64,000 nucleotides of DNA from Chloroflexota bacterium. Lineage in GTDB: Bacteria > Chloroflexota > Dehalococcoidia > Lucifugimonadales > QGNO01. Shown piece after piece: positions 2,421-54,153 of the stretch. Numbering within the stretch: the first letter of the stretch is position 1; every line of letters begins with the position of its first letter. The notes beneath the pieces are model-generated. The model was not told the origin of the DNA and did not search any database. It worked only from the letters and a program-made list of their open reading frames with translations. The position numbers and the translations under genes are program-made. The stretch lies in contig QGNO01000002.1 in the NCBI GenBank assembly GCA_003228195.2, positions 86,824-150,823 on the forward strand. Reading direction: 5' to 3'.

Positions 2421-2864
2421 TTACACTCTCTCTAAAACTTCTCTAAGACTTGCTGGTATGGGTACTGACCTTCCTGAATCTAAACTAACCGTCACAAAAG
2501 TCATGCTACCGCGGGCAGCAATCACACCGTTTTGTTTATTTGCGGTATAACCCAATCTTGCCGAGGTGTTCCCAACATTTTCGACACGTACTGATATCTC
2601 AATGACTTCATCAAGTTGGATAGGAACTTTGAAATCACAATTAACATTGACTCTCGGAATATTTACCCCTAATTCATTAAATGTCTCATTGGTAAACCCT
2701 ATGGAACGAAGGAATTCGATCTCTCCTACTTCAAAAAAACGAAGCATAGCGGTGTGATGAATCGCTTTAGAAGCGTCAGTGTCTGACCATCGTACACGAA
2801 CTTTTTGACTGAAAACATTTCCTTCCGATAATTCAGGCATATGGCCTCCTAATAACTTAACCAA
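2421..2864 (-). CDS. Hotdog-fold acyl-CoA thioesterase (4HBT family), candidate DHNA-CoA hydrolase
   Basis: VRVRWSDTDASKAIHHTAMLRFFEVGEIEFLR is a 4HBT/YbgC-like motif; sits directly downstream of menA. True start may be the internal MPELSEGN. Confidence 0.8.
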   Translation of the reverse strand: MVKLLGGHMPELSEGNVFSQKVRVRWSDTDASKAIHHTAMLRFFEVGEIEFLRSIGFTNETFNELGVNIPRVNVNCDFKVPIQLDEVIEISVRVENVGNTSARLGYTANKQNGVIAARGSMTFVTVSLDSGRSVPIPASLREVLERV

Positions 2865-3778
2865 GTAAACCTAGAAAAACATATGCCAATAGCTAAAAAT
2901 AGACCGTACCACCAGTGAAGGCTGGCTGAACCTCTTAAACCCAATGATAGAGCTGTTTGGTTACTAAATTGTCCGATGTGGCGCCAGACTCTGTAGCCGA
3001 TTGGCAAGGCGATCAATGACGAAACTACTGGCCATTTGAGGCTACCAAATACAAAAAGAAGTACCGGCACTGCGAATCCAATTAGCACTAATCCTAACCA
3101 AAGGTATCTTCCAAATCTGCGGCCAAAAAATGTTACCAATGTAATCTTGCCGGACTGCAAATCTTCCTCTCTATCTCTAATGTCATTAGAAACCAGAATG
3201 GCTGAAACGATACAACCAACCCCAGCTGCAAGAAAAATTGCCTCTATGGTTACAGTGGTTGTGTAAACATAATACGTACCGACCACCATCACTAATCCCA
3301 TGAATATAAAAACTAACGGCGCTCCCAATGCATAGTTGCCTAATGGTCTAGAACCACCGGAATAAAGATATGCTATACCCACACTTACCATACTCACTGG
3401 GAGTAAGATCCAATCCGTTACTGAAACTATATATAGCCCCATTATTGTCGCTAAACCATACGCAACGATCGAGCCTTTTTGCACCGCGTAGATACTGAGA
3501 TGTCCCAAAAATATTACCTTATATGCCGGCACTACTTGTATCCTCTTTTTTGTTTCTTTGTGATCGGAGTATTCATCTGTGAGGTTAGCTCCTATCTGAA
3601 CCATCAATGAAGCTGCAAATACTAGGGCAAAAAGGACAAGATCAAACTGATACTCAGCAAATGCGAGCGCAGATCCAACCAGTACTGGGACTACTGAAGC
3701 TGTGAAAGTAAAAGGTCGTGAAGCCCTATACCAAACTAAGATGTACTCCCATATGTTTTCACTACGTCGTCTATCCAT
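2849..3778 (-). CDS. menA: 1,4-dihydroxy-2-naphthoate polyprenyltransferase (UbiA family)
   Basis: Multi-TM; NLTDEYSDHKE and NDIRDREEDLQSGKITL are UbiA/MenA aspartate-rich motifs; men cluster context. Confidence 0.88.
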   Translation of the reverse strand: MDRRRSENIWEYILVWYRASRPFTFTASVVPVLVGSALAFAEYQFDLVLFALVFAASLMVQIGANLTDEYSDHKETKKRIQVVPAYKVIFLGHLSIYAVQKGSIVAYGLATIMGLYIVSVTDWILLPVSMVSVGIAYLYSGGSRPLGNYALGAPLVFIFMGLVMVVGTYYVYTTTVTIEAIFLAAGVGCIVSAILVSNDIRDREEDLQSGKITLVTFFGRRFGRYLWLGLVLIGFAVPVLLFVFGSLKWPVVSSLIALPIGYRVWRHIGQFSNQTALSLGLRGSASLHWWYGLFLAIGICFSRFTWLSY

Positions 3779-3804
3779 GATAATTCTTAGATCTATTCTC
3801 TGAC

Positions 3805-4614
3805 TTACCAGGGATGCTGTCGAAATCTACTGAAATCAGGATCTCGCTTCTCCAGAAAGGCGTTCCCTCCCTCTTTACATTCATCGGTAGTGTAATATAA
3901 GGCAGTGGCACCGTGAGCAAGATTTTGTATACCATAAACATGATCTGTGTCTGCATTAAAAGCGTGCTTCAAAAATCTAAGCGCCGTCGGACTCTTCTCT
4001 AAAAGTTCCTGGCTCCACATGTTCACTGTCGCTTCAAGTTCGGATTGCTTCACCACAGCATTAACAAGACCCATGTCTAAGGCTTCCTGCGCTGTGTAAC
4101 GCCTGCATAAAAACCAGATCTCTCGAGCCTTTTTCTCACCGACCACACGCGCTAAGAAAATGGCCCCGAATCCCGCGTCGAAACTCCCGTACTTCGGCCC
4201 AATTTGCCCAAATATCGCTCTGTCTGATGCTATTGTAAAATCCGATATCACATGAAGGACATGCCCTCCTCCAATAGCATATCCATCCACCATTGAAATC
4301 ACCGGTTTAGGAATCTCCCTTATCAGTCTATGCAGATGCGTCACCTGTAATTTTATCGCTCCTGCTTGATCCTGATACCCTCCTTCACCCCTTGTTTTCA
4401 CATCACCACCTGTGCAAAAATTACCATTCTCCCCAGTCAACACAACTACACCTATCTCATTATCATCCCAAGCGTCTTGAAAAGCGTTTCGCATCTCATC
4501 AACCGTCTTCGGGCGAAAAGCGTTGAGCACTTCAGGGCGATTAATCGACACTTTTGCAACGCCTTCCCGTTTCGTATAAATGATATCCTCGTATTCAAAC
4601 ATCTTATCCTCCAA
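3805..4614 (-). CDS. menB: 1,4-dihydroxy-2-naphthoyl-CoA synthase
   Basis: Crotonase fold; [60 protein letters not shown] typical of MenB. Confidence 0.93.
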
Positions 4615-4620
4615 TTCTGA

Positions 4621-5814
4621 TTATACAGCTCCAATATCTTTCAATCTTCTAATGTCGTGCTCAGACATCCCAGCCGTTTCTCCCAGTATCTCGAGAGTAT
4701 GTTCTCCCAACAAAGGAGAGGGGCCAGCTGGCCCCGTCTCATAGTCTCCAAACTTAAACGGTGAGTTTGCAACCCGCCATTCCCCTTGAGAACGATCCGG
4801 AATTTTCGCGATCATCCCTCGGTGTTTCACCTGAGGATCATTGACAACTGCAGCAATGTCATTAACTGGTCCACACGGAATGTCAGCCTGCATCAATAAA
4901 TCTAACCAGTAGTCTGCGTCACCCTTACTAAATATGTTTTCCAAGAGTGGCGCCAAATCTTCATAATGGTCCATCCTGCCTCTATTACCTTGAAAACGTT
5001 CGTCTTTAGCCAAGTCAGGTTCGTCGATAGCTTGGCAAAAACGATGCCAAACCGACGAATCATCGGTAAGAATCGCTATAACAAAATCACGGTCTTTTGC
5101 CTTAAAAATTTGGAAGGGAGCCGCAACTGGATGGCGGACACCTATGGGCCCTGGAACGTTTCCTGTAGCAAAATATCTTGATAGGGCATTTTCTACCATC
5201 ATTACCTGACAATCTAACATCGACATATCTATGTACTGGCCCAACCCATTATTACCACGCTTATAAAGGGCAGAAACTATGGCGAGGGCCGTAAATATAC
5301 CAGCTGCACTGTCACCCAAGGAAACACCAGGTCGCACAAGTGATCCATCTGGCTGGCCAGTCAAACTAATTAAGCCCCCCATCGCCTGCACTACTATATC
5401 CAATGCAGGTCTTTGGGCCTCTGGACCATCCTGTCCGAAACCAGAAATGGAAGCGTATATTAGCTTCGGATAATCACCTCTGATATTTTCGTAATCCAAA
5501 CCGAATCTGCGCATAGTTCCAGGCACAAAATTCTCAACCAAGACATCTGAATCCGCAAGTAACGATCTGACGACTTGCTTGCCCTCTTCTGAAAACAGGT
5601 TTATCGTTATGCTTTTCTTGCCTCGATTGATGCTTATGAAGTATGCAGCTTGGTCACCAACTAGAGGCCCCAGATTCCTAGCAGGGTCACCCTGCCCAGG
5701 CCGCTCCACCTTTATAATGTCCGCGCCTAAATCTGCCAAAAGCATTGTGCAAAACGGACCAGATAGTAACCTAGTCAAATCTAACACTCTAATACCATTT
5801 AAGGGCCCTTTCAT
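4621..5814 (-). CDS. CaiB/BaiF family III CoA-transferase embedded in the men locus
   Basis: MKGPLNGIRVLDLTRLLSGPFCTMLLADLGADIIKVERPGQGDPAR...ISGFGQDGP...GQYIDMSMLDCQ (candidate catalytic Asp present). Confidence 0.92.
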   Translation of the reverse strand: MKGPLNGIRVLDLTRLLSGPFCTMLLADLGADIIKVERPGQGDPARNLGPLVGDQAAYFISINRGKKSITINLFSEEGKQVVRSLLADSDVLVENFVPGTMRRFGLDYENIRGDYPKLIYASISGFGQDGPEAQRPALDIVVQAMGGLISLTGQPDGSLVRPGVSLGDSAAGIFTALAIVSALYKRGNNGLGQYIDMSMLDCQVMMVENALSRYFATGNVPGPIGVRHPVAAPFQIFKAKDRDFVIAILTDDSSVWHRFCQAIDEPDLAKDERFQGNRGRMDHYEDLAPLLENIFSKGDADYWLDLLMQADIPCGPVNDIAAVVNDPQVKHRGMIAKIPDRSQGEWRVANSPFKFGDYETGPAGPSPLLGEHTLEILGETAGMSEHDIRRLKDIGAV

Positions 5815-6951
5815 ATGCTTCCTCCAATATTCGGTGATTTTATGAAAATCAAACAGGTCTCTTGGCGAGGGTTCGGCATACCTTTCAAGAACCCATATTC
5901 AACAGCACAAATCAGTGCAACAATCCGATACGGGTTGTTAATTTTCTTGCGAGCAAGTGATGGTACTACAGGGGTAGGTGAGGCTTCACCAATAGGGTCA
6001 GGAAGCGTCGCTGAGATTACAAGTGCAGGAAAATATCTAGAGAAATTTTCAGTAACTTTATTGAACCAAGAATTATCTTCTTCATCTGACGTTGATTTGG
6101 TTAATAACTCTGAAATCCCTCCCACCATAAGATTCGGAATTGAAACAGCATTAGTAGATTTGCTTGGCAAGTTACTCGGATACAATGTTAACAAAGATAT
6201 GATTAGCGCCACCCCAGCATTACCTGTAAACGCGCTTATCGCCTCTGTTTCTCCTAAGCAAGCCGCCCTCGAAGCCAAACTGGCTTTCGAGGCAGGTTTT
6301 GAAACAATAAAACTGAAAGTGGGGCAAGGAACAATAAAACAAGATGAAGCTCTAGTAGCAGGGGTGCGAAATATGGTGCCGAGTGATGTTAAGATCAGGA
6401 TAGACGCGAACCAGGCGTGGAACATCGATGAGTCCATTAAACGCCTCAATAAACTGTCCTCGTATGACATCGAATACGTCGAGGACCCCGTAACCCCCGA
6501 CTGTTTAGAAGATATGCATCGGCTAAAGCAATCGGTCTCAGTCTCAATAGCGGTGGACGAGCCTTTGGCAAACCGTTCACATGAGTCTATTTTGAAAATA
6601 GCTGAAAACGCAGACATTATAGTCATCAAAGCTGGACGGCTTGGCGGAATCAAACCTTCGCTCAAAATAATGCAACTAGTACGTAACCTAGGGAAAGAAG
6701 TGGTAGTGACTTCGTCCCTCGAATCCGGTGTTGGGGTCACAGCAAGTGCACATTTATGTGCCAACTTGGGTGAACACAATTTCGCCCACGGCTTGGGCAC
6801 TACTCCACTGTTGGCAAGCGACCTGCTATCAGCAGCAGCTTCACCGTGGCAAGGGAATTTCATAATGCCAACAGGACCTGGGTTAGGTATATCAATAGAC
6901 GGAGGACTACTCGAGAAATTTAGCCTAGGCCCCCAAGGTAAAGTCACTTAA
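5815..6951 (+). CDS. menC: o-succinylbenzoate synthase (enolase superfamily)
   Basis: KLKVGQG, DANQAW, EDPVTP, GGIKPSLKIMQLVRNLGKEVVVTSSLESGVGVTASAHL; SSLESGVG typical of OSBS. Likely start is internal ATG at 5842 (MKIKQVSW). Confidence 0.87.
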   Translation: MLPPIFGDFMKIKQVSWRGFGIPFKNPYSTAQISATIRYGLLIFLRASDGTTGVGEASPIGSGSVAEITSAGKYLEKFSVTLLNQELSSSSDVDLVNNSEIPPTIRFGIETALVDLLGKLLGYNVNKDMISATPALPVNALIASVSPKQAALEAKLAFEAGFETIKLKVGQGTIKQDEALVAGVRNMVPSDVKIRIDANQAWNIDESIKRLNKLSSYDIEYVEDPVTPDCLEDMHRLKQSVSVSIAVDEPLANRSHESILKIAENADIIVIKAGRLGGIKPSLKIMQLVRNLGKEVVVTSSLESGVGVTASAHLCANLGEHNFAHGLGTTPLLASDLLSAAASPWQGNFIMPTGPGLGISIDGGLLEKFSLGPQGKVT

Positions 6952-7810
6952 TCGCCTCATGGTGCAAATTTTCCTTTAGGAATTTGAAAACCAACTCTTT
7001 AAATATGACGGGTTGCTCCAAATGGATACAGTGCCCTGCCTGACTAACCACTTTCAAACTACAGTTACTTATATTCCTGTCCATTTCAGTCGCTACTTGT
7101 AAGAATTTTCTGTCTTCTTCGCCAGCCAATAGAAGTGTCGGCACATTGATCTGTCCAAGCCTACTGTAATACTGCGGCTGCGCCCCTGATCCAATACCCC
7201 TTAAGCTATTAGCCAAGCCTATCGGTTTGTTCAGAAGCCTCTGAGATCTGAGCCGTTTACGAATGAGCTCTGACAATCTATTCTGGCTATCCCACATAGG
7301 TAGCGCTTCCCAATAGTTCACAAATTCGGTAACTCCCGCTTCTTCTATCCAATTAGCCAGAGCCTGATCATCCTTGGTGCGTTGTACTCGCTCTCCAAGT
7401 TTAGATATTCCAGGGGACGCGCTTTCCAGAACCAAGGCGGCGGAACGATCAGGCATTCCTAATGTAGCGCCGAGTGCAATCCGACCACCAAGTGAATATC
7501 CAATCCATGCAACCTGCTCGAACTCTAGATGATCGAGTAATTCTCCAAGGGCTTTTACATGGATTTCCATCGTGTATAAGTCACTACTATCAGGAGAGTC
7601 AGATTCTCCGTGACCGGGTAGGTCCACAGTTACAAGTTTGTAGTACTTACTTACTGATGCTCCAAAAGCTCGCCAAGTTTCTCGATTTCCAGTAAATCCA
7701 TGCAGGAATACCAGCGGAAATCCCGAACCAACTTGACTAAAGTTGAGATATGCTCCTCCAAGAGCATTGACTGATAAGCGACTCAAATTAGAACTCCAGA
7801 CTAGGTTCAA
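6944..7810 (-). CDS. menH: 2-succinyl-6-hydroxy-2,4-cyclohexadiene-1-carboxylate synthase (alpha/beta hydrolase)
   Basis: FLHGFTGNRETWRAF, VDLPGHGESDSP, WIGYSLGGRIALG; adjacent to menD. Confidence 0.87.
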   Translation of the reverse strand: MNLVWSSNLSRLSVNALGGAYLNFSQVGSGFPLVFLHGFTGNRETWRAFGASVSKYYKLVTVDLPGHGESDSPDSSDLYTMEIHVKALGELLDHLEFEQVAWIGYSLGGRIALGATLGMPDRSAALVLESASPGISKLGERVQRTKDDQALANWIEEAGVTEFVNYWEALPMWDSQNRLSELIRKRLRSQRLLNKPIGLANSLRGIGSGAQPQYYSRLGQINVPTLLLAGEEDRKFLQVATEMDRNISNCSLKVVSQAGHCIHLEQPVIFKELVFKFLKENLHHEAIK

Positions 7811-7849
7811 TTAGAGGTGGATAAAATCTACCTGACCATAAGGTCAATT

Positions 7850-9670
7850 TCATAGTGCAGAATACAAATCCTTTTGGTTTTTTACTGTCTCCGAAATAGC
7901 GTTCCAAACGTCACCGTGCAATTCAACGTTATCGACCCGGTCGCCCGGAATCTCTATCAACGATATTCCCTCACTCGAAAGACTCTCATTAACTGCTCCG
8001 TCAAAAGCGTTCCAATCTTGTGTAAATGAGTAATTCAAACCGTACAAATCGGCCGTAGACCTGAAATTGAGACCATGTGGCGTACCAAAATATTCTTCAA
8101 AAAAATCTGTGTGGTCCGCTTGAGGCAGAAAAGAAAATATTCCACCACCATTGTTATTTAAGACAACAATCGTAGCATTCAATCTATGTAATTTTGCAGC
8201 CAATAGCCCGTTCATATCGTGGTATAAGGATATGTCCCCTATAACAAGAACGACTTTTCTTGTCCCTGCAGCAGCAATCCCCAACGCGGAGGACACTACT
8301 CCGTCGATACCGCTAGCTCCACGATTTGCAACGAAATTAACAGACTTAGGAGACGTATGGTAAAAAGTATCCAAGTCACGGACTGGCATGCTGTTACCAA
8401 CAAAAAATGCGGTGCCATCGTCGATTAGGTTTGACAATCTTGAAAATACCTTACCTTCGAACATGCAGTCATATGAATCTATCTGTCGCTCTATTGCTTG
8501 GCGCACTGCCAAATTTGTTTGCATCCACCATTGACTCCATATGCTGTGCTCTCGTTCCTCGTTAACCAAAGGAGTCAAAGCCTCGCAAAAGCTCACAGGT
8601 GAAACATTGAAGAATTGAGAGACAATCCGAAATGGGTCGCGCCAATTATCGCCCTCATCCACCAAAACTTGATACGCATTCTTGTGCTTCTCCAGATATT
8701 GGGCAAGTGATTTAGAGACAGGCAAAGGTCCAAATCTTATTATCAAATCTGGGGAAACAAGTGTAGACAAATCGTCATCTCTCAAGTAGGCATCGTAAGT
8801 GTCTAACACCATCGATCTATCATGCGAACCAACACGAACACCAGAAAGAGCATCTGCAAATATGGGATATTTCCATTTACTAGCCAATTTGGTTATCAGA
8901 TTTGCAAACCCCGTCTGGTAGTTAGTCCCGCAGACAATTAAGCCATGCTCAACCCCACTCATATAACTGGCCAAAGTTTTCAAATCCTTCATATTTGGCA
9001 TATTTTCATATACAGAGTTCAACACAAACGGATCGCCAGTAACACGCCCGTGCCACGCCTCTAAATCACCTTCCAGAATCTTTTCAGGGAAATCAGTTAG
9101 GATAATTGAGGGTTCAAGGGGTTCTCGGAAAGGAAAATTGACATGAACTGGACCTTCTGGCGAACCGCTAGAGGTCGCATAAACCTTACATGCTAAGGTT
9201 CTAATGTACGCCATAGAATCTGTAGTAACTTCCTTAGCCTCAGCATTTACGGAAAGTTTTACATGATCACCATAAATACGGGTCTGGTCAATTGTCTGCA
9301 ATGCCCCCCAATTAACCAATTCTGGAGGTCTGTCAGCCGTAAGAACAATTAACGGAACCAAGCCGTATCGAGCCTCAGCTACCGCAGGTAAGAAATTCGC
9401 ACTAGCGGTTCCAGAAGAGCACACCATTGCCACAGGTCTACCCATATTCCGAGCCATTCCAAGTGCGAAAAATCCTGCTGATCGTTCATCAAGATGAGTC
9501 CATTTTCTTATGCCAGAGTGCCGAGCGAACGAAATCGCTAACGGAGATGAACGAGAGCCAGGACAGATGCAAACGTCCCGCAACCCGCTACGTGCCAACT
9601 CATCGACAAATGCCCCGGCAAAAGCATAATTTCGGTTTTCGAACTTCACGCTACTCCCCTCCAAGAGCAC
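7850..9670 (-). CDS. menD: SEPHCHC synthase (ThDP enzyme)
   Basis: FVDELARSGLRDVCICPGSRSSPLAISFARH...ERSAGFFALGMARNMGRPVAMVCSSGTASANFLPAVAEA...NNNGGGIFSFLPQ. Confidence 0.97.
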   Translation of the reverse strand: MLLEGSSVKFENRNYAFAGAFVDELARSGLRDVCICPGSRSSPLAISFARHSGIRKWTHLDERSAGFFALGMARNMGRPVAMVCSSGTASANFLPAVAEARYGLVPLIVLTADRPPELVNWGALQTIDQTRIYGDHVKLSVNAEAKEVTTDSMAYIRTLACKVYATSSGSPEGPVHVNFPFREPLEPSIILTDFPEKILEGDLEAWHGRVTGDPFVLNSVYENMPNMKDLKTLASYMSGVEHGLIVCGTNYQTGFANLITKLASKWKYPIFADALSGVRVGSHDRSMVLDTYDAYLRDDDLSTLVSPDLIIRFGPLPVSKSLAQYLEKHKNAYQVLVDEGDNWRDPFRIVSQFFNVSPVSFCEALTPLVNEEREHSIWSQWWMQTNLAVRQAIERQIDSYDCMFEGKVFSRLSNLIDDGTAFFVGNSMPVRDLDTFYHTSPKSVNFVANRGASGIDGVVSSALGIAAAGTRKVVLVIGDISLYHDMNGLLAAKLHRLNATIVVLNNNGGGIFSFLPQADHTDFFEEYFGTPHGLNFRSTADLYGLNYSFTQDWNAFDGAVNESLSSEGISLIEIPGDRVDNVELHGDVWNAISETVKNQKDLYSAL

Positions 9671-11072
9671 TAAGTAAAGGCTGAAACTTTAGCTCTGTCT
9701 CCTGGAATTCTTTCCTAATATCGGATCCTTCTACGATTCCTGCACCCGCAAACAGGGTAGCTTGGTTGCCTCTAATCAAAGCTGACCTTATGGCAACACT
9801 GAACTCACCATCACCTTTGTGGTCCATCCAACCAACCGGCGCAGCGTACCAACCCCTATCCCCCTCAAGATGTCGGATAAGGTCCAACGCGGTACTGCTA
9901 GGCACACCTCCCAAAGCTGCAGTTGGATGCAACATTTCGACAAGGTCCAAAATGCCTTCTTTATTTTTCAGCCGGCCAGTAAACGAAGTACGTAAGTGTT
10001 GAACATTCTTTAGCTTGATCACAGTGGGTTCTAGTTCCCAATCGAGCTGTTCGCAGCTTTCTCGCAGCACCTCTATTAACATATCCACCACCATTTGGTG
10101 TTCGCGGCGTTCTTTATCGCTTACCAACAGGGCTCTAGCCAGAACTTCGTCTTCCTCACTATTTATTCCTCTTTTAGCTGTTCCAGCCAAACATGAAATA
10201 TCTACAATTCCACTGTTCAAACGAATTAGAGCCTCAGGAGTGGCGCCAATGAAGCAAGATCCAGCAGTTGCATGTGCAAAAACACAACAGTCCGGGTAGG
10301 TCTGAACAAGATTCTGTAGTGCTGCTTCAGCCGAAAAATCACCGTTGCCGACAAGCATCTTTCGACGTGCGAGTACGACTTTACTTAAAAGGCCATTCTC
10401 GATGGAATTCAAAGCCTGCTCTAGCCAACTTTCCCATTCATCATAAGAACCGGAACTAGCATCAACGATTCGCGGCTGGATATACTTGAAAGACTCAGAT
10501 TGACACAAGAATTCGATTTGGCCAATCAAGCCCTGAGCCTGTCTATTTGGATCGGTTTCATCACTAGTCAACACATTCACTGTTACCCAAGCCTCTCCAC
10601 TTGAGAAAGTAAATACGAATTTAGGCAAAATGAATCTTGCATCGTGGAACCCTGACCAAACATTCGATTTTTGGATCCTACTATCAAACCTTATTCCGCC
10701 AATGAAAACTGGACCCTTTAAAGAATCTTCGGGGTGTTCAATTATAGCCAATTCTAATAGGTCGTTGTATTCATCATTGATACTGGTAATAGAGTCTCCA
10801 GAATTTGATACCAGTTCCTTAGTACAACCTATTCCAACTACCCAAATGTCACGGTCTGGCTTAGCCCAAAAAGTTCGCTCGGCCTCAAGCCTCCTGGCCA
10901 TAGCGAAAATGTCTATTGGACCACTAGTGTCCGCAAGGGGAAATGATAAGCTAACCAATACAGTCTTATTTTGAGAACGAGCCGATTGGGAACCTCGCGA
11001 AATCAAATCTGCAAGTTGTTTTTCATAACTCTTCAAGCCCTTTGATTTCGTCAGAAAGTTTTCCATTACCAT
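9651..11072 (-). CDS. menF: Isochorismate synthase
   Basis: Chorismate-binding fold: KVVLARRKMLVG, SCLAGTAKRG, HLRTSFTGRLK, LHPTAALGGVPSSTALDLI, GAGIVEGSDIRKEFQETELK. Confidence 0.95.
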   Translation of the reverse strand: MVMENFLTKSKGLKSYEKQLADLISRGSQSARSQNKTVLVSLSFPLADTSGPIDIFAMARRLEAERTFWAKPDRDIWVVGIGCTKELVSNSGDSITSINDEYNDLLELAIIEHPEDSLKGPVFIGGIRFDSRIQKSNVWSGFHDARFILPKFVFTFSSGEAWVTVNVLTSDETDPNRQAQGLIGQIEFLCQSESFKYIQPRIVDASSGSYDEWESWLEQALNSIENGLLSKVVLARRKMLVGNGDFSAEAALQNLVQTYPDCCVFAHATAGSCFIGATPEALIRLNSGIVDISCLAGTAKRGINSEEDEVLARALLVSDKERREHQMVVDMLIEVLRESCEQLDWELEPTVIKLKNVQHLRTSFTGRLKNKEGILDLVEMLHPTAALGGVPSSTALDLIRHLEGDRGWYAAPVGWMDHKGDGEFSVAIRSALIRGNQATLFAGAGIVEGSDIRKEFQETELKFQPLLSALGGE

Positions 11073-11076
11073 AAAC

Positions 11077-11727
11077 CTAAGATAATTCTAAATACTGATC
11101 TGGCGCGCCTACACTTCTAAGCAAAGATAAAATCAGCGTATTAGTCGCATCGGTTAAAGGATTAGGTTGTCCGACAATTAACCATCTCATAATGATTTCG
11201 TAAATGGCTCCAAACCACATATGGGCGATCAATTCGGTGTCCTGAGGTTCAATCTGGCCAACGGAAATCGCATTATCCAATTCTATCTTTATGAAAGTTG
11301 AAAATTTCTCACGCATAGGCAGAAACTTCATATCATTGGACTTGCCATGGCCGAGTACGTTTATAAGGAGTACATGCGCTATCTTCCTTCTCTTAGAAAA
11401 CGTACTCAGCAAAGACCCTATTCCTGTTACAACTCTACCTAGAGGAGTTGGTTCGTTTCTAACATTTTTCAGGGTCGCCTTAATAAGTTTTTCACTCATA
11501 CGGTCTACTAGGGCCATAACCATTTTCTCTTTGCTGCTAAAGTGAAAATAGAAACTCCCTTTAGAGGTGCCGGAGACATCTACTATTTCTTGCACGCCTG
11601 CCCCAGTGTAGCCATGTTGAGCAAGTACGTTGACGGCCGCATCCAAAATTCGTTGCCTGGCATTTAGTGGATTGACTAAAGATGATTTTTCCATGATTAA
11701 CAGACCGATTGGTCTATAATTAGCCAT
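11077..11727 (-). CDS. TetR/AcrR family transcriptional regulator; probable true start at 11694
   Basis: RQRILDAAVNVLAQHGYTGAGVQEIVDVSGTSKGSFYFHFSSKEKM is a TetR HTH; 4 nt upstream of menF on the same strand. Confidence 0.92.
   Translation of the reverse strand: MANYRPIGLLIMEKSSLVNPLNARQRILDAAVNVLAQHGYTGAGVQEIVDVSGTSKGSFYFHFSSKEKMVMALVDRMSEKLIKATLKNVRNEPTPLGRVVTGIGSLLSTFSKRRKIAHVLLINVLGHGKSNDMKFLPMREKFSTFIKIELDNAISVGQIEPQDTELIAHMWFGAIYEIIMRWLIVGQPNPLTDATNTLILSLLRSVGAPDQYLELS
11702..11715. promoter_or_regulatory. Candidate TetR-family operator palindrome AGACC-N4-GGTCT
   Basis: agaccgattggtct; 8 nt upstream of the internal ATG (11694) of the TetR gene; arms AGACC/GGTCT. Confidence 0.5.
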
Positions 11728-51601: not shown

Positions 51602-52933
51602 ATGCAAATAGACGGAATGCTCTCCGGGGTCAGGGTCCTTGATTCGACAACTAATGTCGCCATGCCCACAGCAATGCATATTCTCGCTGACATGGGCGCA
51701 GAGGTTATTAAGATCGAAGGCCACACCAGGGAAGAGGCATCTAACCGAGATGGTCCATTTCAGTTCCTTCAACACGGAAAACTAGGTGTGACTATCAATT
51801 TGAGAGGAGACGGTGGCTTAGATCTCTTCAAGGACTTGGCCAAGGTAAGTGACGTACTAGTCGAGAATAACCGTGCAGGAACCTTTCAAAGACTCGGATT
51901 GGGATATCAGGAGCTTGTAAAGGTTAACCCCACTTTGATCATGCTCTCCAACACCGGATTTGGTCAAACGGGGCCGTGGAGAAGATACACCGGAATAGGC
52001 TCCTTCCTAGAGCTCACAACCGGCGTCAGCAATCAGACCGGTTATATGGATCAGGGGCCACGACAGGTTGGTGGAGCCTGGATTGACATCCATGCCGCAT
52101 GGATGACCGTGTTCTCCATACTAGCTGCCCTTAATTTCAGAGCTGAAACGGGTAAGGGGCAGCATATAGACTTCGGAATGTATCAGGTAGGTGTAACCAC
52201 GTTAGGGGTCGAACTACTCGACTTCTTTTCAAATGGCCGTAATGGCACCCGAATGGCTAATCGACACCCCTATCACGCTCCTCACGGAGTTTATCCGTGT
52301 ATTGGCGACGATAAATGGATAGCTATCGCCGTGGAAACATCTGAACAATGGGACTCTCTTAAGGGAATCATGGGGGACCCAGAATGGGCAAACAGCTCAA
52401 AGTTTTCAAGCCCGATTGAACGGCATCAAAATCAAGATAGCCTTGATGAACATCTGAAAGCGTGGACTATAACCTACGATGCATATGAATTAATGCATCT
52501 TTTGCAAAATAGCGGGGGCACAGCTTCGATTGTGCCTAATTCAGCAGAAATAATGATCGATCCACACATGAAAGCTAGAGGCTTTTACGAAAAAATGGAG
52601 CACTCACCTGAATCCGGCTTTGGGACCAGAATGTTTGTGGGCAGGCCATGGAAAGCTTCGAAGACCCCTTCATATTTCAGGAGGCCCACCCCATATCTCG
52701 GGGAACACAACGATACCATATTTGGCGAACTCCTAGGTCTCAACAAAAAAGAGCTCGGAGACCTGGAATCCGCCAACGTTATAGCGGAAGTTCCTCCGAA
52801 GCCAAAAGAGAAGAAGGGTAAAACAGCAGCTGGTGGACTACAGAACTTAAACAACCCCGGACCTTCACTTGAAAACGGCACTTTAGCGTATATCGATGCT
52901 GACTACCAAAAGCGTCTGGGAGTAGAAGAATGA
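51602..52933 (+). CDS. CaiB/BaiF family III CoA-transferase (non-canonical active-site region)
   Basis: GVRVLDSTTNVAMPTAMHILADMGAEVIKIEGHTREEAS...NTGFGQTGPWR...GKGQHIDFGMYQVGV; Gln where Asp is expected. Confidence 0.9.
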   Translation: MQIDGMLSGVRVLDSTTNVAMPTAMHILADMGAEVIKIEGHTREEASNRDGPFQFLQHGKLGVTINLRGDGGLDLFKDLAKVSDVLVENNRAGTFQRLGLGYQELVKVNPTLIMLSNTGFGQTGPWRRYTGIGSFLELTTGVSNQTGYMDQGPRQVGGAWIDIHAAWMTVFSILAALNFRAETGKGQHIDFGMYQVGVTTLGVELLDFFSNGRNGTRMANRHPYHAPHGVYPCIGDDKWIAIAVETSEQWDSLKGIMGDPEWANSSKFSSPIERHQNQDSLDEHLKAWTITYDAYELMHLLQNSGGTASIVPNSAEIMIDPHMKARGFYEKMEHSPESGFGTRMFVGRPWKASKTPSYFRRPTPYLGEHNDTIFGELLGLNKKELGDLESANVIAEVPPKPKEKKGKTAAGGLQNLNNPGPSLENGTLAYIDADYQKRLGVEE

Positions 52934-54153
52934 TTCCAGGTCTATTTGGCAACATCCGTGTTATCGACCTTACTACTGACGTCGCCGGTCCTTTCGCTAC
53001 AAAGCTATTTGCCGACTACGGCGCAGACGTAATAAAGGTCGAGCCTATTAGTGGTGACATTTCCAGACAGATGGGCCCGTTCCATGAAGACGACCCACAT
53101 CCCGAAAAGAGTCTCTCTTTTCTGTTTCTTAACTGCAATAAAAGAGGCATCACTCTAAATCTCGAGACTAGACTCGGACAAAAAATCCTCAGAGAGCTAA
53201 TAAAAGATGCCGATCTCCTAATTGAAAATAACCCTCCGGGGCATATGGAAAAACTTGGACTAGGTTATACGGATCTTGAAAAAATCAATCCCAACTTAGT
53301 CATGACCTCTATTACTCCTTTCGGTCAAACCGGCCCTTATAAGGATTTCTCAGGAAACGACCTTATCTACTACGCCTTTGGCGGACAAATGTACATCAGT
53401 GGCGCATACGACCGGGAGCCCCTTAAACACGGTACTCCACAAAGTCTTTATCTTGGAGGTATGGTAGCCGCCTACTCTACGGCAGGAGCCCTTTTTGCAC
53501 GCAGGGCACTTGGATCCGGCCAGTATATAGATCTCTCTTTGTCAGAAGTGATGGCTGCAGACCAGTTTCAGACTATAGTTCGGTATGGGTTCTCCGGGGA
53601 AGTGACCAGGCGGTCACCGAAAAATGATGCAGGAGACCCAAAGGGCACTACGTTTAACGGAATAGTACCCGCAAAAGACGGATACATCCGCCTCTCTGCC
53701 AGCCCCCCGAATAGGCTGTACCCAAGATCCGGAGGCACTCCATGGAAAGAGTACGCAGATATCCTTGGGGAACCTGAGTTAGGGGAACAACTTGAAAATG
53801 CCAACAACACAACAGACAGGGACAAGATACTCCTTCCAGTGATAAGCGACATTCCGAAGTTCGAATACTTCCACAATCTGATGACCAAGGACTGGAACGC
53901 AGCAGTTGTACAAACACCTGAAGATCTATCAAACTGCCCACACTTAGAGGAACGCAATTACTTCACGGAGATAGAGCATCCCGTGGTTGGCAAAATTCGA
54001 TTCCCCGGAGAAATCATAAGATTTCCTGAGTCCCCATGGAATTTACGTCTTCCAGCCCCTCTACTCGGACAACATAACTCTGTAGTTTATGGTGAGGAGC
54101 TTGGCTACTCAGAAAACGAGATAGTACAGCTAAAACAGATGGGCTCGATCTGA
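52930..54153 (+). CDS. CaiB/BaiF family III CoA-transferase (Glu at candidate catalytic position)
   Basis: NIRVIDLTTDVAGPFATKLFADYGADVIKVEPISGD...ITPFGQTGPYKDF...GSGQYIDLSLSEVMA; ATGA overlap with upstream gene. Confidence 0.92.
   Translation: MIPGLFGNIRVIDLTTDVAGPFATKLFADYGADVIKVEPISGDISRQMGPFHEDDPHPEKSLSFLFLNCNKRGITLNLETRLGQKILRELIKDADLLIENNPPGHMEKLGLGYTDLEKINPNLVMTSITPFGQTGPYKDFSGNDLIYYAFGGQMYISGAYDREPLKHGTPQSLYLGGMVAAYSTAGALFARRALGSGQYIDLSLSEVMAADQFQTIVRYGFSGEVTRRSPKNDAGDPKGTTFNGIVPAKDGYIRLSASPPNRLYPRSGGTPWKEYADILGEPELGEQLENANNTTDRDKILLPVISDIPKFEYFHNLMTKDWNAAVVQTPEDLSNCPHLEERNYFTEIEHPVVGKIRFPGEIIRFPESPWNLRLPAPLLGQHNSVVYGEELGYSENEIVQLKQMGSI

Follow-up and report, generated by a model that had tools for sequence, protein, structure and literature searches.

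In the classical menaquinone pathway, the activation of o-succinylbenzoate (OSB) to OSB-CoA by MenE is regarded as an invariable step, and it serves as a criterion for scoring the pathway as present or broken in a genome. The locus described here lies in a stretch of 64,000 nucleotides from a Chloroflexota bacterium (contig QGNO01000002.1, positions 86,824 to 150,823; hereafter the window), and the question that it raises is how OSB is activated in an organism whose menaquinone (men) cluster contains no acyl-CoA ligase gene and includes a family III CoA-transferase (CoAT) as the candidate OSB-CoA-forming enzyme.

The cluster runs from 11072 to 2421 on the minus strand, with the exception of menC, which is on the plus strand. 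Enzyme names were assigned with curated NCBIfam models, each scored against its own cut-off, and MenF, MenD, MenH, MenC, MenB, and MenA of the classical (MenFDHCEBA) pathway all exceed these thresholds: menF, isochorismate synthase (9651..11072, minus; TIGR00543, 337 bits vs. cut-off 225); menD, SEPHCHC synthase (7850..9670, minus; TIGR00173, 468 vs. 244); menH, SHCHC synthase (6944..7810, minus; TIGR03695, 259 vs. 209); menC, o-succinylbenzoate synthase (5842..6951, plus; TIGR01927, 145 vs. 131); menB, DHNA-CoA synthase (3805..4614, minus; PRK07396, 408 vs. 380); and menA, DHNA polyprenyltransferase (2849..3778, minus; TIGR00751, 115 vs. 102). CoAT (4621..5814, minus) is located between menC and menB, with its 3' end 6 nt from the menB start, and matches PF02515 with 416 bits against 23 over the full length of the model (positions 1–366 of 366). 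The last gene, which overlaps menA, encodes a hotdog thioesterase (2421..2864, minus; 4HBT_2, YbgC/FadM-type; 71.4 bits vs. cut-off 68.7), a possible DHNA-CoA thioesterase. This gene content and the position of CoAT had been proposed by a previous reading of the DNA letters (the sequence-only reading), and both are borne out by the models and coordinates. Upstream of menF a TetR-type regulator is encoded (11077..11727, minus), and a TetR-like gene at this place is also present in several relatives (L121, L249, L264).

For menC, the earlier claim was right about the presence of the gene and missed its opposite orientation. The gene is divergent from CoAT and convergent with menH, whose end it overlaps by 8 nt (6944-6951). 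Its ORF opens at 5815, and the ATG at 5842 agrees better with the starts of its relatives; the start codons of menC and CoAT are back to back (CATATG), or 27 nt apart if menC starts at 5842. The inversion within the cluster implies that promoters must be located inside adjacent genes or that transcription reads through them. It is kept in every CoAT cluster showing that region and is also found in two clusters without CoAT (L258, L263).

The genome-wide search for MenE that the sequence-only reading had put forward as a check was performed on 1,522,803 bases in 28 contigs, with a completeness of 90.3% and a contamination of 1.85%, and no MenE was found. The MenE model (TIGR01923) matched one protein, at 134 bits where 330 are required; the same protein is the only one recovered in the AMP-binding superfamily search of this genome, which found no FadD-type ligase, and is an acetate--CoA ligase (886 bits vs. 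cut-off 729). Since the rest of the men pathway is present above cut-offs, OSB-CoA must be made. The genome also encodes the succinyl-CoA synthetase beta subunit (478 bits, above cut-off), so succinyl-CoA is likely available.

The linkage of CoAT to men genes was followed in the relatives. MenB loci of 245 genomes of the class were extracted and annotated; the usual order of complete men clusters is F-D-H-B-(A)-C-E, and two genomes (G002 and G040) have a window-like arrangement with CoAT. A wide scan of 84,980 species, one genome each (GTDB 220), in which the CoATs of the window, G002, and G040 were the queries, gave at least eight loci inside men clusters, comprising seven at 56–64% identity and a partial copy (L153) with 61% identity over 263 residues; among the matches listed, the other 72 loci have at most 50% identity and lie outside men clusters. 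A further search at order level brought in G270 as well as another locus of G325, which raises the men-linked CoATs, window included, to at least 11 loci in at least 10 genomes from at least six families of Dehalococcoidia/Chloroflexota. As far as the contigs extend, the arrangement is menF-menD-menH-[menC inverted]-CoAT-menB-menA, with one gene more in G270, and its occurrence in at least nine other genomes is beyond chance; the conserved linkage to menB on which the sequence-only reading had made its proposal depend is therefore observed. The additional gene of G270 (L249:10992-12677) lies between CoAT and menB and encodes a 561-aa protein with zero Pfam matches.

Downstream of menA, three related genomes of family f104 encode a PAC2-family protein (L120:7463-8392, L122:9113-10057, L123:7277-8215; assignment run on the L120 copy) at the place that the thioesterase occupies in the window. 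No hotdog thioesterase was found in the men clusters of relatives where the contigs run past menA. This lack of an in-cluster thioesterase in most relatives would suit a role of CoAT after MenB, in which CoA is moved from DHNA-CoA to another acceptor in place of thioesterase hydrolysis and OSB is left untouched; such a role is very improbable, given that the window's own cluster has a thioesterase and that OSB activation in its genome would be left unexplained.

With regard to the catalytic residue, the sequence-only reading had placed the candidate Asp in DMSMLDC. The alignment excludes this motif, although its D196 and D201 are also well conserved, and predicts as nucleophile D168 in RPGVSLGDSAAG (SLGDSAAG; codon at about 5311-5313), which is aligned with the RPGVAMTD motif of human SUGCT and is collinear with Asp169 of formyl-CoA transferase. 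D168 is conserved in all 11 men-linked sequences and in 117 of 119 others, and the following residue, 169, is Ser in 11/11 men-linked CoATs and in 0/119 relatives, which mostly have Ile, so that S169 marks the men-linked group. The predicted monomer has a mean pLDDT of 82.5 and a pTM of 0.82, with low confidence at 137–164 and 223–231, and compares with family III structures with TM values up to 0.90; the second-ranked fold match is the succinate-bound formyl-CoA transferase from Brucella. The window's genome has 17 family III CoA-transferases in 1.5 Mb, and among those compared none is closely paralogous to CoAT (at most 37% identity). Two more family III genes lie in tandem at 51602-54153, one of several such pairs in the genome.

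The 11 men-linked CoATs group as one clade, with 100/100 support, in a tree built from 73 CoA-transferases. The nearest non-men homologues (440–540 bits) occur commonly throughout the class, whether or not a genome has menE or menD; the men-linked clade branched off from this broader group as a specialised lineage. The ancestral function of the group was probably something other than the men role, because these nearest relatives are widespread with or without menE.

The distribution of MenE was analysed on the same genomes. No MenE above the TIGR01923 cut-off was found in the CoAT genomes; for G270 the result comes from the superfamily search and from the tree. The cut-off alone was rejected as a test, since G014 and G201 encode men-linked MenE with 295–302 bits, under 330; divergent true MenE can fall below the threshold, and a tree of AMP-binding proteins longer than 400 aa was used instead, with a few fragments left out and some long branches flagged. 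In this tree 28 men-linked MenE cluster together in a single clade (100/99 support) that contains no ligase of the ten CoAT genomes. Counting as MenE the proteins over the cut-off or men-linked, the enzyme is present in 0/10 menD-bearing genomes with CoAT, some of which are from beyond the class sample, versus 43/58 without CoAT (Fisher p 1e-5, uncorrected for kinship). If MenE were encoded in all eight CoAT genomes of known completeness, the odds that incompleteness hides it in every one of them would be about 2e-6.

The co-occurrence of CoAT with men loci lacking menE, suggested by the sequence-only reading as a check, is found in one direction: the CoAT genomes have no MenE-clade ligase, but some men clusters without menE are also without CoAT. 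In about 15 other genomes of the class that carry menD, both CoAT and a recognised MenE are lacking; some of their clusters end at a contig edge, and others, such as those of G001, G043, G061, and G142 (93–97% complete), do not. The absence of menE alone does not, therefore, imply replacement by CoAT. Men clusters, or parts of them, without menE or CoAT are seen at L109, L260, L262, L261, L257, L258, and L263, in genomes without MenE over the cut-off, and no candidate ligase or CoA-transferase was found beside menC in L109, L095, L082, L260, L262, and L261. An unlinked CoAT copy was considered for the genomes lacking both; high-scoring homologues are present in most of the 15 and are equally common in the controls, i.e., genomes with MenE and genomes without menD, and the unlinked 440–540-bit homologues lack S169, so they provide no evidence for such a copy. 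Pairs of menB and menA, with MenB over the curated cut-off, occur at L060-L063 and L105-L108; no menD match was reported in their genomes (G069, G136, G179, G221, G020, G103, G194, G223).

In the genomes lacking both enzymes an unlinked generic FadD-type ligase may suffice, and the same could be supposed for the CoAT genomes, most of which, the window's genome excepted, contain FadD-type ligases. According to this explanation, the activation of OSB would fall to a ligase that is unlinked or unsampled, either of FadD type or a MenE encoded in the 10% of the genome that is missing, and CoAT would be otherwise employed near menB. It draws on the class clusters that have neither gene, and we regard it as unlikely: the window's genome gave no FadD-type enzyme, CoAT has no close paralogue among the compared family members of its own genome, and it is inside the men cluster in 10/10 genomes, none of which has a MenE-clade ligase.

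On genomic grounds, the proposed takeover of the MenE step by a dedicated CoAT is well supported, and the predictions of the sequence-only reading at this level (no MenE, linkage to menB, no MenE-clade ligase) held. That CoAT makes OSB-CoA by CoA transfer, as a non-orthologous replacement of MenE, is a likely conclusion from these sequence comparisons, in which the family serves to infer OSB as acceptor, as well as the donor and the reaction mechanism. By analogy with its members, D168 would be acylated by the donor acyl-CoA, the likeliest being succinyl-CoA; an aspartyl-CoA thioester would then form on D168, from which CoA would pass to the aliphatic carboxylate of OSB. This ping-pong transfer would supply OSB-CoA to MenB, and the dedicated CoAT clade would have displaced the ATP-dependent ligase of these Dehalococcoidia, whose menaquinone pathway is otherwise classical.

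A special case of the same explanation concerns the donor. In CaiB-type members of family III, CoA is recycled from product to substrate, and an equivalent reaction here would be DHNA-CoA + OSB -> DHNA + OSB-CoA, in which CoAT would replace both MenE and the DHNA-CoA thioesterase, CoA would be purely catalytic, and no ATP would be required at this stage. The relatives whose contigs pass menA and show no hotdog thioesterase in the cluster are consistent with this donor, which is nevertheless rather improbable, as the window has a thioesterase gene overlapping menA and SUGCT, the closest solved relative, uses succinyl-CoA. If the replacement of MenE by CoAT is true, it would save ATP, account for "incomplete" menaquinone pathways in uncultured Chloroflexota, and provide a role for one of this group's many CaiB/BaiF paralogues of unassigned function.

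An expansion of CaiB/BaiF acyl-CoA:CoA transferases, with a proposed ATP saving in acid activation, was described in SAR202 Chloroflexota (PMC5395668). This system shares with CoAT the family and a part of the phylum; it was discussed for the degradation of dissolved organic matter, and quinones are unmentioned in the text of PMC5395668 by word search. In algae, low-specificity peroxisomal CoA transferases were speculated to be the first OSB activators (PMC6189191). No report of a bacterial OSB CoA-transferase was found in a full-text search of open-licence papers, a scope that does not exclude its presence in subscription literature.

Among characterized enzymes, the closest solved relative of CoAT is human SUGCT (PDB 9br6/9br7; 287 bits, TM 0.90, 36% identity), also of family III, with the Asp in the same RPGxxxxD motif. 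SUGCT is a succinyl-CoA:glutarate CoA-transferase and resembles the reaction proposed for CoAT in its succinyl-CoA donor and dicarboxylate acceptor; its role is in glutarate/HMG metabolism, whereas that predicted for CoAT is in quinone biosynthesis, and the score of CoAT against the succinate--glutarate CoA-transferase equivalog NF052585 (317 bits) is below the cut-off of 750. The nearest model suggested by the sequence-only reading was instead BbsEF (PDB 9fn0, 9fol), the succinyl-CoA:(R)-benzylsuccinate CoA-transferase, which belongs to the same family, has a similar fold (TM 0.86), and acts on a succinylated aromatic acid whose chemistry is close to that of OSB. However, BbsEF has two subunits and functions in toluene degradation, whereas CoAT is a single gene in its cluster, and the 26–28% identity and 142–144 bits of BbsEF, half the score of SUGCT, led to its rejection as a direct relative; CoAT is far nearer to SUGCT and to enzymes of the formyl-CoA-transferase type. 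CoAT would thus resemble BbsEF in the proposed chemistry, without close kinship. Finally, MenE (TIGR01923) performs the same step with the same product, OSB-CoA, as proposed for CoAT, but through an unrelated fold and chemistry, the ATP-dependent adenylation of the PF00501 superfamily.
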